Shown one piece after another: positions 1,330 to 31,592 of a DNA stretch of 64,000 bases. A program made the position numbers and the translations under genes. The stretch is from Halostagnicola kamekurae. GTDB lineage: Archaea; Halobacteriota; Halobacteria; Halobacteriales; Natrialbaceae. The notes below the pieces were generated by a model. It was not told where the DNA came from, did no database searches, and saw nothing but the letters and a program-made list of their open reading frames with translations. Each line of letters opens with the position of its first letter. The stretch's first letter is position 1. The stretch is taken from NCBI RefSeq assembly GCF_900116205.1, contig NZ_FOZS01000002.1:1054001-1118000 (forward strand). The letters run 5' to 3'.

Positions 1330-4098
1330 GTGAACGTACGCGGGAGCGTCGCGGGTGAGGTCGACGTGCGAACGGTGACGACAAGCTACGGCGAGAGCGA
1401 CCTCGCGGAAGTTCCGCTGCGGTTCGATCGACACGAAGATTCGACGGCCCCGGCCGACGCGTCCAGTTTCGAGTCCGACGATGGGTCCGGTTCCGGGTCC
1501 GACGGCGCGTCCAATTACGAATCGTCGGGCGCGGTCGACGGACGGGACGCGACGACGGTCACGTTGTGGGGCAAGTGGACCGAATCGGCGGAGCTGCTCG
1601 AGCCGGGGATGGAACTGCTCGTGACGAACGTCGACGAGGACGAGTACCAGGGCGAGACGCAGTACTCCACGACGGGCGAGTCCTACGTCGTCGTCGAGCC
1701 GAGCTTTCTGGTGAACGTGACCGATGTCCGCAACTGGGTCGAGTGTCCGCGCCTGTACTACCTCAACAAGCTCTCGGGGGTGCCGCTGAACTATCCGGTC
1801 CTCAAGGGGACCATCGTCCACGAGGTCTTCGGGGACCTCCTTCGGGGACGGGACCTCGAGGCGGCGATCGACGAGCGAATCGACGAACGGGGCCTCGAAC
1901 TCGGCTTACTGGGCGAGACCCCCGAAGGCGTCGCCGAGGACGTCCGCGACAACGCCGCCGCGATCGAGGGCTGGCTCGAGCAGGGCCGACTCACAGAACA
2001 AGATAGCTGGCGCTCGGAACAGCTACTCATCAGCGAGACGTTCGGCATCCGCGGGCGCGCCGACGCCATTCGACGCGGCGCGCCGGTCGAACTCAAGACC
2101 GGCAAGAACCTGCGGAAGGATCCGCGGTTCAAGGACAAGGTTCAGGCCGCCTGCTACGCGCTCTTGCTCGAGGAACACGGTGGCGACGTCGATATGGGTA
2201 CCTTGCTCTACACGAAAAACTCCGCGCTCGATCGGAACGAGGAGACCGGCGACCTCACGCCGGCCAAGGAGTTCACGATGGGCGAGGGCCTCCTGAAGTT
2301 CGTCGTTCGCGTGCGAAACGAGATCGCGGTGATGGAAGTCGCCGGCGACGTGCCGACGGGGTACGAAGGCGACGCCAAGTGCGAGTACTGCTTCGAACAG
2401 GACACCTGCATGGTCGTCTCCGGACGGCTCGACCAGGAGTCGAAGGCGGGCCAGATCGGCCAGTCGCTTCCGCCGGAGGAGCTCGAGTACTTCGAGCGGC
2501 TCTACCACGCCATCGAGGAAGAACGTCGCGAGATCCACGCAGAGTACGCCAAACTCTGGGAACAGGACGCCGAAGAGCGCGCCGAGGACGACCGGGCGAT
2601 CATCGATCTCGAGTTCGTCGAACGGCGGGAACTCGAGGGCGGCCGCTGGGAGCTTCGGACCCGCCAGCGCGGCGCGTCGACCTCCAAACTGCGCGAAGGG
2701 GACCTCGTGCTGGCCAGCGACGGCCACCCGGTGAGCGGCAACTCGGAACTCGCTCAGATCGAGCGGCTGGACGACGAGATCGTCCTCACGGCCGACGAAC
2801 CCGTCGAGGTCACCCGGCTCGACGTCTACCCGTCCGAACTGACCACCGACCGGTTGCTCGTCGCGCTTCACGACGCCCTGCTCAAAGGGAGTGACCGTCG
2901 CAAGGACGTCCTCTTCGGGCGCGCCGACCCCGAATTCGACGATCCGGGAGAGACGTTCATCGACAACAACGACGCGCAGGACGAGGCCGTTCGAAAGGCG
3001 GTGGGAGCGCAGGATTGCGCATTGATCCACGGCCCGCCCGGGACGGGAAAGACCTACACCATCGCTCGAGCGATCCGCGCGATGGTCGAGCGCGGCGAGC
3101 GCGTCCTCCTGTCGGCGTTTACCAACCGGGCGGTCGACAACGCGCTCGAGGCCTTGCTCGAGCAGGGGATCGACACGACCGACGTGGTCCGGGTCGGCTC
3201 CGAGAGCGGCGTCCGCGAGGACATGCAAGCCCACCGGCTCGACTTCGCGGGCGATCCCGAGGAACGCGTCGCGGAGCTACAGAACGCGAAGGTCGTCGCC
3301 GCGACGACGGCGACCTGCGGCTCGCGGGTCATGAAAGAGCAGGCCTTCGACGCGGTGCTCGTCGACGAAGCCGCGCAGTTGACCGAACCGGGGACTTACG
3401 CGGCGATCAATCTCGCCAGTCGGTTCGTCCTCGTCGGCGACCACGAACAGCTCCCGCCGGTCGTCCAGGCCGAAAACGACCTGACGACGTCGCTGTTCGA
3501 GCGACTCGTCGAGCGACACCCCAACGCAGGGATCATGCTCGACCGACAGTACCGGATGAACCAGCGCATTCAGGCGTTCGCCTCGCGGGAGTTCTACGAC
3601 GGCGAACTCCGCCCCGCGGAGCCGACCGTCGCGACGCGAACGCTCGACGACCTCGAGGGCGTCTCTCGGGACGGCTTGCCTCCCGAACTTCGGGATCCCG
3701 TAAGCTTAGTCCCGGTGGCGGGCGACGACGGCCAGTATACCGACGACGCCGAAGCCGCCCGGATCGCGGAACTGATCGAACGGTACGAAGCCGCGGGCCT
3801 CGAGCGGTCCGATATCGGGGTCATCGCGCCGTTTCGCGCGCAGGTGTCGAATATTTCGAACTACGTTCCCGACGGCGTCGCCGTCGACACCGTCGACCGG
3901 TTCCAGGGTTCGAGTCAGGAGGTCATCATCGTCTCCTTTACCGCGACCGGCACCCTCGAGGGACCGATCTTCGAGGACTACCGGCGGATCAACGTCGCGC
4001 TGACGCGACCGAAACGCGCGCTCGTGCTAGTCGGCGACGCCGACGCGCTCGCGACCGATCCGGTGTACGGCCGGATGCTCGAGTGGGCGCACCAGTAA
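1330..4098 (+). CDS. Dna2-like nuclease-helicase (Cas4/RecB-type nuclease fused to SF1 helicase)
   Basis: 922 aa from a GTG start; the frame extends upstream to 1174, but that segment is basic and non-conserved. A PD-(D/E)XK nuclease comes first: a cysteine in WVECPRLYYL (about residue 139), the His of GTIVHEVF, GRADAI, VELKTGKN as the ExK, QAACY, and then three cysteines in CEYCFEQDTC (about 350-357). This four-Cys arrangement is the Fe-S cluster of Cas4/AddB/Dna2 nucleases. An SF1 helicase follows: Walker A GPPGTGKT (about 568), Walker B VLVDEAAQ, LVGDHEQLPPV, LDRQYRMN, VDRFQGSSQEVI and VALTRPKRAL. It probably processes DNA flaps or ends in replication and repair. Family assignment is strong; an Fe-S cluster is inferred from the cysteines. 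Confidence 0.92.
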   Translation: MNVRGSVAGEVDVRTVTTSYGESDLAEVPLRFDRHEDSTAPADASSFESDDGSGSGSDGASNYESSGAVDGRDATTVTLWGKWTESAELLEPGMELLVTNVDEDEYQGETQYSTTGESYVVVEPSFLVNVTDVRNWVECPRLYYLNKLSGVPLNYPVLKGTIVHEVFGDLLRGRDLEAAIDERIDERGLELGLLGETPEGVAEDVRDNAAAIEGWLEQGRLTEQDSWRSEQLLISETFGIRGRADAIRRGAPVELKTGKNLRKDPRFKDKVQAACYALLLEEHGGDVDMGTLLYTKNSALDRNEETGDLTPAKEFTMGEGLLKFVVRVRNEIAVMEVAGDVPTGYEGDAKCEYCFEQDTCMVVSGRLDQESKAGQIGQSLPPEELEYFERLYHAIEEERREIHAEYAKLWEQDAEERAEDDRAIIDLEFVERRELEGGRWELRTRQRGASTSKLREGDLVLASDGHPVSGNSELAQIERLDDEIVLTADEPVEVTRLDVYPSELTTDRLLVALHDALLKGSDRRKDVLFGRADPEFDDPGETFIDNNDAQDEAVRKAVGAQDCALIHGPPGTGKTYTIARAIRAMVERGERVLLSAFTNRAVDNALEALLEQGIDTTDVVRVGSESGVREDMQAHRLDFAGDPEERVAELQNAKVVAATTATCGSRVMKEQAFDAVLVDEAAQLTEPGTYAAINLASRFVLVGDHEQLPPVVQAENDLTTSLFERLVERHPNAGIMLDRQYRMNQRIQAFASREFYDGELRPAEPTVATRTLDDLEGVSRDGLPPELRDPVSLVPVAGDDGQYTDDAEAARIAELIERYEAAGLERSDIGVIAPFRAQVSNISNYVPDGVAVDTVDRFQGSSQEVIIVSFTATGTLEGPIFEDYRRINVALTRPKRALVLVGDADALATDPVYGRMLEWAHQ

Positions 4099-20379: not shown

Positions 20380-20416
20380 CTGTGCGTTCGCTTCTTTCGC
20401 GAAACGTGGGCGGTAA

Positions 20417-21400
20417 TTACCTCGCCTCTACCTCTCGCTGTCGGTCCCGCAACGCGGCGATTCGATCCTCCGTCGACGGGTGGCTACCGAACAGCCAGCG
20501 CTCGAGCCGGTGAAGTCGCCGTCGAAGCTCCCAGTAGGCTGGCTCGGTCTCACCTTCGGGACCGAGCATGACCTTCTCGAGTTCGGCCGGCTCGAGCGGG
20601 AGGATCGACAGCGAAGAGACCCCGGAGACCTCCCGGAGGTCGCGAGCGGGCGTCTCGGATATGTGATGGTCTAACTTCGCCAGCGCATCGGCGAGGGCGG
20701 CCGGCGACCCGGTTACCTCCGCCGCCGCTCGATCGGCGGCGACCTCTCTGGCTCTCGAGAGGTGGGCCGCGATCGTTCTGCCGACGACCCAGATAACGGC
20801 CGACAGCGCCGCAAGCGGGACGATGATGACGATCGTCCATCCGGGCCGCTCGATCGCCGTGATCCGCGATCGAATGCCGTCGGCGAGAACGATCGGGAGG
20901 GAGACGACAGTCATCACCATCGTATCCCTGTTTTTGACGTGTGCGAGTTCGTGGGCGATCACCGCCTCGAGTTCGGCGGGCTCGAGCGATTCGATCGTCC
21001 CGAGCGAGAGGATCAGGTGGACAGAGTCCGGCCGAAAGCCAACGGTCAGGGCCTCCGGCGTCTCCCGCTCTGAGACCGCGATGGTCGGGACGGGAACGTC
21101 GAGCTGGGCGGCGACGCGCGTCGTCGTCTCGTACAAGTCAGGTGCCGTTTCTCGGTCCACGGGGTGTGCGTCCGCGAGCCGTTCTACCGTTCCGATATGC
21201 GTGTACTCGAGATAACCGATCGTCAGTAGCACCCCAGCGGTAACGATGAAGGCGATCTGAGGTGCGAGAGAGCTCTCGGCGACGGCAAAGAGCGCGTAGA
21301 AAACGACCCAGACGCCCGCGAGTAGTCCGACAGTCACGACCAACAACCCGAGTATGGCGGCGACCATCCGAAGGCGGAGACTCGCTGCTCGAGTGGGCAT
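20417..21400 (-). CDS. M48 family membrane zinc metalloprotease (HtpX-like)
   Basis: 327 aa. Two N-terminal membrane helices (about residues 10-65), then the peptidase domain with the zinc motif HELAH in AVIAHELAHVKNRDT (about 147-151), two further hydrophobic segments, and the downstream Glu region SRAREVAADRAAAEVTG that supplies the third ligand. The end has the usual HtpX segment GSHPSTEDRIAALRDRQ. Such proteases degrade misfolded membrane proteins with the active site at the cytoplasmic face. All catalytic residues seem present. Confidence 0.92.
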   Translation of the reverse strand: MPTRAASLRLRMVAAILGLLVVTVGLLAGVWVVFYALFAVAESSLAPQIAFIVTAGVLLTIGYLEYTHIGTVERLADAHPVDRETAPDLYETTTRVAAQLDVPVPTIAVSERETPEALTVGFRPDSVHLILSLGTIESLEPAELEAVIAHELAHVKNRDTMVMTVVSLPIVLADGIRSRITAIERPGWTIVIIVPLAALSAVIWVVGRTIAAHLSRAREVAADRAAAEVTGSPAALADALAKLDHHISETPARDLREVSGVSSLSILPLEPAELEKVMLGPEGETEPAYWELRRRLHRLERWLFGSHPSTEDRIAALRDRQREVEAR

Positions 21401-22680: not shown

Positions 22681-23174
22681 TTGTGCAAGTCCCCTCGAGC
22701 GATCGGTCGTTTGTTATGAGTTCGATACGAGCGGCGCGTGACCACTTTCCAGCAAGCGGTTCGACCGGCTGCACTCGAGGGGTTCGAAAGCTACTCTCGA
22801 GCGGTTCGACAGCCGAGGAGAGGAACGAACAAGCTGTGTCGAGACCGTCGGGTGCAACCGAGGCCTATCGCCCAAGCGCTCGAGACGATTGTCCTCCGTA
22901 ACCTGTTCTTACATCCGAATAGCCTCGGTTCCGAACTGTCACGGCCGCTCACACGCTGTCTTAAACGACCGGAGTACCAAAGCCCGCCGGTCAATCAGTT
23001 CGGCGCTGTTCGTTCATCTCACTTCGATCCGCTCCGGGGGACGCTTCTTCGACGACTCCCGCCCCCGATCCGGATCGGATGAGATATTATGATACGATTC
23101 GAGTCCCCCCCAGACCGCGCCAGTAGTACCAGTACGCACCCGGACTCGAACGTCCGTTCTACCGGTGAGAAACT
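22681..23174. other. 494-bp intergenic region upstream of the HTH-10 regulator
   Basis: No ORF with haloarchaeal character on either strand. The only structure seen is the palindrome at 23065-23078 and an AT-rich GATATTATGAT just after it, probably the promoter of the regulator with an untranslated leader of roughly 70 bases. Confidence 0.45.
23065..23078. promoter_or_regulatory. 14-bp perfect palindrome next to the HTH-10 regulator promoter
   Basis: CCGATCCGGATCGG reads identically on both strands and lies just before the TATA-like GATATTATGAT (from 23082). It may be an autoregulatory or other operator. GC-rich short palindromes can occur by chance here. Confidence 0.3.
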
Positions 23175-23849
23175 ATGACGACGATCGCGGAGATAACGGT
23201 CACCGCCGCCGATTTCGCGCTCGCGGACACCTGCCAGTCCACCTCCGATCTCGAGCTTCGAGTCGAGAGCATCGCCGGGGAAGGATCCCAACCGATGCCG
23301 CTCATCTGGTTCTCGAACGTCGACCGAGAGACGATAGAGTCTGCGCTCGCCGACGATCCGACGGTGCGCGAATTTCGGCAACTGCTCACCAGTTCCGACG
23401 GCACGGAGCGGCTCTATCGCCTCGAGTACGACTCGAGTGTCGTCGACGTGTGCGATTGCGTCTTCGATTACGAGGGCTCGATACTCGAGGCGAGCGTCTC
23501 GAACGGCCAGTGGACGCTCAGACTACTTTTCCCGCGTCGGGAGAGCCTCTCGAGCGCGATGGGAGCTATCGAGGGCCACGAGGTCACCGTCGACGTCCGA
23601 CGGATGGTCGAGGCGGGCCGGAACGCCGATCTCGAATCGAGCGCGGCGCTGACCGAACCCCAGCGCGAAGCGATCGCGGAAGCCTACCGACAGGGCTACT
23701 ACGACGTTCCGCGAGAGATTTCGCTCGAGGAGCTCGCGCGGGAACTGAACATCTCGCATCAGGCGCTCTCCGAACGGCTCCGTCGAGCGAATCGCGTGCT
23801 CGCCGGCGAACAACTGAACCAGCCGCGAGGCGAAATCGTCCGGAACTAA
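23175..23849 (+). CDS. bacterio-opsin activator-type (HTH-10) transcriptional regulator
   Basis: 224 aa. The N-terminal two thirds form the sensor-like region typical of the Bat family (WFSNVDRETIESALADD, LYRLEYDSSVVDVCDCV, LRLLFPRRESLSSAM). The last 60 residues are the HTH-10 domain: LTEPQREAIAEAYRQGYYDVPREISLEELARELN, then ISHQALSERLRRANRVL as the recognition helix region. It has no PAS or GAF domain, so the input is unknown. Transcribed alone; what it controls cannot be inferred from neighbours. Confidence 0.9.
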   Translation: MTTIAEITVTAADFALADTCQSTSDLELRVESIAGEGSQPMPLIWFSNVDRETIESALADDPTVREFRQLLTSSDGTERLYRLEYDSSVVDVCDCVFDYEGSILEASVSNGQWTLRLLFPRRESLSSAMGAIEGHEVTVDVRRMVEAGRNADLESSAALTEPQREAIAEAYRQGYYDVPREISLEELARELNISHQALSERLRRANRVLAGEQLNQPRGEIVRN

Positions 23850-23916
23850 GCGAACGGACCCGCCGTGTGCGAACCGACCGGCGGAACGTGTCAATACCCG
23901 CGCTAGTCTCGGAGTA

Positions 23917-24160
23917 GTGACGGTTCGGTCACCATACAGACGGCGTAGTGGCTCCCCCACGACGGTTCGACGCCGCCTGTCGCGGCGACAGCCTGCGGTT
24001 AGCTACGTAGGGGGGCGTGGTACCAGTAGCGCGTGGGCACCTCGTCCCCGGGTCGCCCACACCTCCGCGAGAACTGTCCGAAAGCGACCGTGGCTGGCGA
24101 CGGCATCGGTCGCTTGCCCTGTGAGCGCCGACCCCGTCAAACGGGGTCGTTCGGCGTTTT
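23917..24160 (+). ncRNA. candidate structured RNA: six consecutive perfect hairpins then a T-run
   Basis: This gene-less interval packs hairpins in a row: GTGAC/GTCAC (23917-23932); CGGCGT/ACGCCG (23941-23975) enclosing GTGG/CCAC; CTGTCG/CGACAG (23977-23991); GTGGGC/GCCCAC (24033-24060); AGCGACCG/CGGTCGCT (24083-24114); and GACCCCGT/ACGGGGTC (24130-24148), closed further by CGCC/GGCG (24126-24156) and followed by TTTT (24157-24160), a plausible terminator. Strand is chosen from that T-run. I do not find SRP RNA or RNase P RNA signature sequences, nor a convincing TATA box. Stem density is the only evidence; high GC raises the chance background. Confidence 0.4.
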
Positions 24161-24193
24161 CGAGACGAATACGAGCGAGATGCCTCGCTCAGT

Positions 24194-25255
24194 TCAGAAG
24201 TATGCCTGCGTCTCGACGGTTCCCGTGACGGTCACCGATCGGCCGTCTTCCTCGACCGAGTAATCCTCGAGCGTCGCGAATTCGTCGTAGATGTCGCGAT
24301 TGCGCTCGACGTACGTCTCGACCTCGTCCGCGACCGCGTTTCGTTCCGATTCGTACAGGAAGACGACGGAAATCTCCGCTGACTCGCCGTCGATCGAACT
24401 CGCTCTCGAGCGGCCGATGAGTCCCGTTTCCCACCCGGCTTCCTCGCTTCCAGTTCCGAACCGTTCTTCGGGGTTTTCGGTTAGCACCCCTCTGTTGATG
24501 TGGCCCTGATCGAACTGTGACAACAGTTCGTTGGCGTCGTCATCGTCGGTCAGGCGCGGAGAGCCGTCGACGTTCGCGTCAATCGTGATCTCGAGTGCCG
24601 TGATGTGATCGATGTTACTCTGGTCGGACGTGATCCGAATAATCGCTTCCTCACCGACGCCGATCGCGGCGTTTCCGGTATCGTAGAAATCGTACCCCTC
24701 GTACTCCCCTTCGCTCGAGAGGCTGTCGCCGGCCCAGTTCTCGAGGGTGTCTTCGACGTCGCCGGCTTCGAACGCGCCCCCGAGGATGTCGATGGTGACG
24801 GTAGAGCGTTGCTGTGCCGTGGTCGTCCGACCATACTGCGTCTGTCGAGTGTTCTCCCACTCCCACGAGAGACTCTGTGTTAGCTGCCAGTCGAGGTCGG
24901 AGGCGGGAACGCCGACGCGATCCCGGAACTCGGCCGCCGAACCGCCTTGGAGTTGCTGGTAGCCATCGAGTTCGTCCGCGTACTCGAATATCGGTTCGGG
25001 GAGTACGTACTCGAACTCCGCGTCGGTTCGCGTACTTTCCGAAATCTCGAAGTCCTGGCCTCCCGACGTATCCAGTAGCTCCTCGAACGCTGGATCGGCG
25101 AGCCAGTTACCCATAGGCACACCACCGTACTCGTCGCCCCCGACGAACGGGATACTTCCCGTACAGCCGGCGAGACTCGCGATACCCACTGCTGCAACAC
25201 CTGTACTTCCGCGCCGGATGAGACTCCGACGTGATAGGTCTTCCCCCATACTCAT
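24194..25255 (-). CDS. secreted lipoprotein, haloarchaeal hypothetical
   Basis: 353 aa. The N-terminus has a Tat-type signal (SRRSLIRRGSTGVAAVG) ending in the lipobox LAGC, so it is exported folded and lipid-anchored outside the membrane. The mature protein is strongly acidic and beta/alpha mixed, with ATLEDYSVEEDGRSVTVTGTV near the end and DYGVPMGNWL-like sequence after the anchor. No enzyme motif. It is expressed alone. Function unknown; the class includes many solute-binding and envelope proteins. Confidence 0.75.
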   Translation of the reverse strand: MSMGEDLSRRSLIRRGSTGVAAVGIASLAGCTGSIPFVGGDEYGGVPMGNWLADPAFEELLDTSGGQDFEISESTRTDAEFEYVLPEPIFEYADELDGYQQLQGGSAAEFRDRVGVPASDLDWQLTQSLSWEWENTRQTQYGRTTTAQQRSTVTIDILGGAFEAGDVEDTLENWAGDSLSSEGEYEGYDFYDTGNAAIGVGEEAIIRITSDQSNIDHITALEITIDANVDGSPRLTDDDDANELLSQFDQGHINRGVLTENPEERFGTGSEEAGWETGLIGRSRASSIDGESAEISVVFLYESERNAVADEVETYVERNRDIYDEFATLEDYSVEEDGRSVTVTGTVETQAYF

Positions 25256-30894: not shown

Positions 30895-31245
30895 ATGAAT
30901 CGCGTCATCCGCTACATCGTCTCGATCGTAGTCGGACTGAGCGTTACCGCACTCACACTGCAGGTCGCAGGAACCGAGGATTGGCTATTTTTGGCGGTGT
31001 TTCCGCTTTACGCGACGACGACCGCGTTCGTCCTGAGCCACACGTCCGAGTGGTCCCGGAGCCTTCGAATGACGGATCAGGATATTTCCTCCCGAATCCG
31101 TGGCGCTACTATCGGAGGGGTCAGCGCGTTCTCGATCTCGTTACTGGTGGACGTTTCTGTTGCCGTCGGCATAACGGCGATCGGCCTCATGCTGTTTTCA
31201 CTCTCAATCGGCGTCATGGAATCCGCAATCCAACGCGAGCGGTAG
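30895..31245 (+). CDS. small membrane protein, 116 aa
   Basis: Starts MNRVIRYIVSIVVGLSV at the ATG at 30895. Four hydrophobic segments: residues 5-25, 30-50, 70-90 and 93-112, with a short charged cytoplasmic loop SEWSRSLRMTDQDISSRIRG between the middle pair. No known domain. It diverges from the MBL gene and marks the left border of an AT-richer islet of small genes. Function unknown. Confidence 0.55.
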   Translation: MNRVIRYIVSIVVGLSVTALTLQVAGTEDWLFLAVFPLYATTTAFVLSHTSEWSRSLRMTDQDISSRIRGATIGGVSAFSISLLVDVSVAVGITAIGLMLFSLSIGVMESAIQRER

Positions 31246-31592
31246 CAATCGAGACCGCACCGGTTTCCGTCACGACATTATTCCCGTCCAAAAACAGTAG
31301 TTATATGACACTACAGGTCGTTGGATCAAACGGAAGCCACACACTCCACGGCAAGGGGGCGTTTTGTATTGAAATGCCCCGGGTGATTGGAGCACCCGAG
31401 ACGTGGCTTCCGACCGCACATTGGATCGGTTGCCATGATTGGATATCTTCTCCGCGGGCTTAAACATCCCGTCCGACAGACGAATCGAACCCAATTACCG
31501 CCAGCCGCCGCGCACGCACCGCCAGCGACGGTAACGGCGACAGCGACCGCACCGCCGAGCGGGGCACACGCACTCGAGGGTGAGCGCGAGCC
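31246..31592. other. 347-bp gap with one doubtful small ORF
   Basis: The only notable ORF is an ATG at 31305 running to 31463 (52 aa, MTLQVVGSNGSHTLHGKGAF...), just after TTATATGA, which could be its promoter or may overlap its start. It has four cysteine/histidine-rich spots but no zinc pattern. Two small hairpins (GGGGC/GCCCC and GGGTG/CACCC) lie inside. I regard it as unproven. Confidence 0.25.

Follow-up and report, generated by a model that had tools for sequence, protein, structure and literature searches.

Does the hairpin-rich DNA between two convergent genes of Halostagnicola kamekurae encode a structured RNA and, if so, of what kind? A preliminary description, made from the letters of the sequence, had singled out positions 23917-24160 as a gene-less locus packed with six stems and had proposed a new structured RNA. 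We analysed this stretch, its neighbours and its homologues; the window referred to below is the whole stretch of DNA under analysis, 64,000 nucleotides long, and positions are numbered from its first letter.

A conserved non-coding element between convergent genes

The flagged stretch is intergenic, lying between the stop codons at 23849(+) and 24194(-) of a convergent gene pair. Comparison with homologous loci placed it within a slightly longer conserved element of 282 bp, which reaches beyond it on both sides. The genes and the conserved parts are as follows.

23175-23849, + strand: HTH_10/BAT-domain regulator gene (Pfam PF04967, E 3e-19; PF15915, E 1e-8; synteny)
23884-24165, + strand: the conserved non-coding element in full, a candidate for an RNA gene or a 3'-UTR element (homologues; covariance-model matches)
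23884-23893, + strand: conserved left edge GAACGTGTCA (GAACGTRTYA), in all four homologues
23894-24021, + strand: 5' block, conserved in sequence and with no excess folding (hand alignment; per-segment fold z-scores)
24069-24078, + strand: GAGAACTGTC motif, with one A to G change in one species
24116-24128, + strand: invariant GCCCTGTGAGCGC, the longest unchanged run of the element (13 bases; four-species comparison)
24194-25255, - strand: convergent lipoprotein-like gene, with no Pfam match and not beside the element in genome G018

Homologues were located in two ways. A search with the neighbouring regulator gene gave 28 related loci, and in A56 and A-GB9-2 related sequence follows the gene; BLAST over 125 genomes of the family returned both again, together with a third homologue in G018. 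The element is present in four of the five Halostagnicola genomes (the window copy, A56, A-GB9-2 and G018), at a constant position and on a constant strand, with identities to the window copy of 0.86 in A56, 0.66 in A-GB9-2 and 0.63 in G018. The fifth genome, G020, yielded no copy by BLAST or covariance model. A covariance model of the four Halostagnicola copies scored the carriers at 271-313 bits, values that are high by construction as the model was made from the same four sequences, and gave nothing above about 21 bits outside them in 125 family and 116 class genomes. These weak matches, the best of which fell mostly on the terminator-like 3' part, were judged to be chance. BLAST with two different homologues as queries over 391 genomes of the class found no element outside Halostagnicola; matches in G048 and G348 were short, lay inside or edging predicted ORFs of their own loci, and were also judged to be chance. 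Since neither BLAST nor the covariance model gave a copy elsewhere, the element is, as far as searched, confined to Halostagnicola. A viral or plasmid origin was rejected, the matches being short and by chance. An invariant 14-mer was likewise dismissed as a viral link: it matches many viral contigs and is too short, and no viral contig matched a longer composite motif.

Conservation begins abruptly at the left edge, and the DNA to its left is unrelated in both length and sequence in the distant species. The first 138 alignment columns contain no indel among the four species. Identity between distant species is 0.62-0.66 in the element, higher than the 0.50-0.60 of fourfold-degenerate sites in the regulator gene; together with the ungapped columns this points to selection on the element, though of a moderate kind. 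Other convergent intergenic regions nearby (from a rough gene call) are less conserved than the element; the other nearby intergenic regions, which mostly contain promoters, are conserved equally or more.

The element is more than the tail of the lipoprotein gene, because in the two outgroups checked, Halopiger goleimassiliensis and Natronorubrum texcoconense, the convergent HTH/lipoprotein pair occurs without the element, and G018 presents the reverse, with the element in front of a TrmB gene and no lipoprotein gene beside the regulator. The lipoprotein-like gene itself adjoins the HTH_10 gene in several genera, is present in two copies in N. texcoconense (locus L017), and was not found within the 80 kb examined around the G018 locus (L032).

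Folding of the window copy and its homologues

The stems that had been described in the window copy are present, as inverted repeats I4, I5, I8, I12 and I16 and the GTGAC/GTCAC stem, and so is the T run that follows them.

23917-23932: GTGAC/GTCAC stem, 5 bp
23971-23976/23982-23987, + strand: inverted repeat I8, CGCCGC/GCGGCG stem, partly kept in relatives (two both-side changes, several broken pairs)
24033-24038/24055-24060, + strand: inverted repeat I12, apical hairpin GTGGGC...GCCCAC, one pair of which varies among the four species (G-C twice, A-U once, G-U once)
24082-24090/24107-24115, + strand: inverted repeat I4, middle hairpin AAGCGACCG...CGGTCGCTT, interior remodelled, pairing in three of the four species
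24126-24131/24151-24156, + strand: inverted repeat I16, terminal hairpin outer stem CGCCGA...TCGGCG
24129-24137/24141-24149: inverted repeat I5
24126-24160, + strand: terminal hairpin with inner GACCCCGT/ACGGGGTC, then TTTT at 24157-24160, together a probable RNA 3' end

An alternative long helix, ACAGACGGCGT/ACGCCGCCTGT (23936-23946/23970-23980, 10 of 11 positions paired), competes with the local hairpins in the window copy; by eye it is not kept in G018.

Folding of 23917-24160 gave a minimum free energy of -119.6 kcal/mol, with z -2.04 on the + strand (200 shuffles, 9 of which fold as well) and z -0.99 on the - strand. When the window was scanned in 640 segments of 244 nt with 20 shuffles each, the flagged segment had z -1.27 and ranked 137th, and the best-folding segments reached z -4.8. 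The earlier statement that nothing else in the window matches its stem density was not confirmed, because its z lies only mildly below shuffles and its rank is no higher than this. The lowest values in the same scan belonged to 20401-20644(+) at -4.8, 3401-3644(+) at -4.7 and 31201-31444(-) at -4.2, and the first two of these segments mainly overlap predicted genes.

Comparison across species divides the element. In none of the four species does the 5' half outperform shuffled sequence in folding (+ strand z -0.7 to +1.6). In the 3' half three hairpins, apical, middle and terminal, recur in independent lineages despite sequence change. Segment z-scores in A-GB9-2 and G018 respectively were -1.7 and -2.4 for the apical hairpin, -4.3 and +0.5 for the middle one, and -2.1 and -0.1 for the terminal one. 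The variable pair of the apical stem (GTGGRC/GYCCAC) is compensatory, the middle hairpin still forms in the window copy, A56 and A-GB9-2 although most of its interior has been rewritten, and in the terminal outer stem an A-U pair has become G-C, by changes on both sides, between close relatives; a T-rich run comes after this stem in all four species. The GAGAACTGTC motif is probably single-stranded or paired over a long range. The GTGAC/GTCAC stem is lost in both A-GB9-2 and G018, and a GTGG/CCAC stem is reduced to 3 bp in A-GB9-2 and lost in G018, which rules out six conserved stems. What survives of the proposed six-hairpin RNA is its 3' part, three hairpins with some compensatory changes; the remainder comprises the two stems lost or shortened in distant species and a 5' half that does not outfold its shuffles.

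Tests on the element as a whole were less favourable. RNAalifold on the four-sequence alignment gave z -0.9 on the + strand and -1.5 on the - strand, not above column shuffles, and on three lineages the - strand (z -2.1) was as good as or better than the + strand. An unbiased helix-covariation scan of the whole element returned top helices at the null level. The RNAalifold and helix tests have little power, because the structure tests rest on about three independent lineages. The alignment and covariation check in relatives proposed earlier thus yielded a conserved element and a few compensatory changes, and whole-element scores that do not exceed column shuffles. We consider the structure of the 3' half plausible on this comparative evidence.

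These results bear on the possibility that the element is functionless intergenic DNA, decaying or drifting, such as the remnant of an insertion in a Halostagnicola ancestor, with hairpins that arose by chance in GC-rich sequence. A fold energy ordinary for the window, an identity modestly above that of fourfold sites and non-significant covariation tests all speak for such DNA; against it stand 138 columns free of indels, an invariant run of 13 bases, conservation with sharp bounds beside unrelated flanks, and hairpins whose remodelled interiors still pair. We therefore regard drift as very improbable.

The strand was also considered. Counts of G-U versus A-C pairs were nearly balanced by eye on a first seven-helix structure, and the hand-picked 3' stems contain six G-U and no A-C pairs, a count made on stems preselected for pairing on the + strand. 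These G-U pairs, the T run at the 3' end and the orientation shared with the regulator gene favour the + strand, weakly, because the stems had been chosen as + strand pairing. On the - strand the 3' hairpins score almost as well, as would suit a bidirectional terminator combined with a protein-binding region, acting as DNA between the convergent genes and giving rise to no free RNA. The site between convergent genes and the terminal hairpin with its T run in all four species are also in keeping with this explanation, yet about 280 nt with an ungapped 5' block of 138 columns is long for a terminator, and G018 has kept the element despite a change of the convergent partner gene. A role purely at the DNA level is, in our view, distinctly unlikely.

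Coding capacity and known RNA families

The substitutions among the four species have no period-3 bias, which rules out a protein-coding origin, and no ORF in any of the six frames is common to all four; the region is indeed without a gene of the coding type, as had been stated. An Rfam search with the window copy and two homologues, at gathering and permissive thresholds, returned nothing credible. The absence of SRP RNA and RNase P RNA signatures noted earlier agrees with the covariance models, neither of which matches the element, and the genome has real copies of both elsewhere, so the element was rejected as either RNA.

C2:211049-211484: RNase P RNA (RF00373), the genome's own copy, 143.8 bits
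C2:805351-805662: SRP RNA (RF01857), the genome's own copy, 175.1 bits

The element would resemble archaeal RNase P RNA and SRP RNA as a long, GC-rich, structured haloarchaeal RNA of similar length, but matches neither. Its other attributes are those of the haloarchaeal intergenic small RNAs (igRNA/itsRNA): it is intergenic, non-coding and, at about 280 nt, within their range of about 50-500 nt. Conserved intergenic sRNAs of 50-500 nt that belong to no Rfam family and have no assigned function have been described from halite communities (PMC7002113). The element is like these in being conserved, haloarchaeal, intergenic, of such a length and outside Rfam; they were found as transcripts, whereas the element is inferred from comparative sequence.

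A candidate genus-specific small RNA

Comparison of the four copies shows a real conserved non-coding element that has sharp edges, keeps the same position and orientation, and retains hairpins in its 3' half. That it is RNA in nature is likely. The explanation that we prefer, to which we give an even chance, is that the element is a Halostagnicola-specific small non-coding RNA gene of about 250-280 nt on the + strand. The candidate RNA would start near 23884-23917, end at the T run (24157-24160) and be transcribed separately, as its own RNA. The 3' hairpins and T run would provide RNA stability and the end of transcription, and the ungapped 5' block, with GAGAACTGTC and GCCCTGTGAGCGC, may form the working surface for pairing with a target mRNA or for binding a protein such as Lsm, a proposal modelled on the trans-acting haloarchaeal intergenic sRNAs. 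Part of the haloarchaeal intergenic sRNAs have their own basal promoter, with BRE/TATA elements centred near -38 and -29 (PMC5892119). Inspection by eye found no clear BRE/TATA box here; the conserved left edge may possibly be a weak promoter element of this type.

A direct precedent, by analogy, for a syntenic haloarchaeal intergenic sRNA restricted to one genus is sRNA132 of Haloferax, an intergenic sRNA confined to that genus and conserved in location (PMC6560208). It is 138 nt long with mapped ends and a deletion phenotype, and its proposed target is the mRNA of a phosphate ABC transporter operon (PMC6560208). The element shares with it, as described, an intergenic and non-coding nature, restriction to one genus, a conserved location, and predicted hairpins beside an unpaired stretch; in contrast, it is about twice as long and was recognised from comparative sequence.

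The HTH_10/BAT regulator gene is the upstream, same-strand neighbour of the element in all four carriers and the sole neighbour common to them, and for this reason the main rival to a separate RNA gene is an element acting in cis in the 3' UTR of the HTH_10/BAT mRNA, which would control the stability, ending or translation of that mRNA and might be processed into a 3'-UTR sRNA. The proximity of the gene, 34-194 nt upstream, accords with this. However, the DNA from the stop codon to the element (34, 34, 194 and 80 nt across the four carriers) is unrelated between distant species, G018 has a strong palindrome right after the stop codon, and the element is missing beside the orthologous regulators of other genera. 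The unrelated spacer DNA and the palindrome suggest that regulator gene and element are separate units, and we hold a 3'-UTR element to be rather unlikely.

A further reading can be formulated: a gene for a structured RNA, about 280 nt long, born in this lineage, matching no described family and acting with the HTH_10/BAT regulator, in a two-part design of a conserved 5' block without a preferred fold and a 3' hairpin domain. We consider this reading improbable. If the element is transcribed, it would join, as a long, genus-restricted intergenic candidate, the small number of haloarchaeal sRNAs that have support from comparison; synteny would date its origin to within the Natrialbaceae, and its 282 bp would offer a defined interval for deletion. 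Otherwise, the locus would illustrate that the hairpin-rich look of GC-rich haloarchaeal DNA is weak evidence until homologues are compared.

Two further features were observed around the regulator gene. The palindrome of G018, CCGCGGGCACGAACGTTCGTGCTCGCGG, is near-perfect, 28 nt long and directly after the HTH_10 stop codon (L032 1679-1706, - strand), and might serve as a terminator or as a binding site. The other feature is a further piece of conserved non-coding DNA, at 22951-23153 of the window, which separates divergent genes on the upstream side of the HTH_10 gene. Its matches are 78% identical in G018 (208 nt) and 69% identical in G021 (218 nt), and it is probably promoter or leader DNA.
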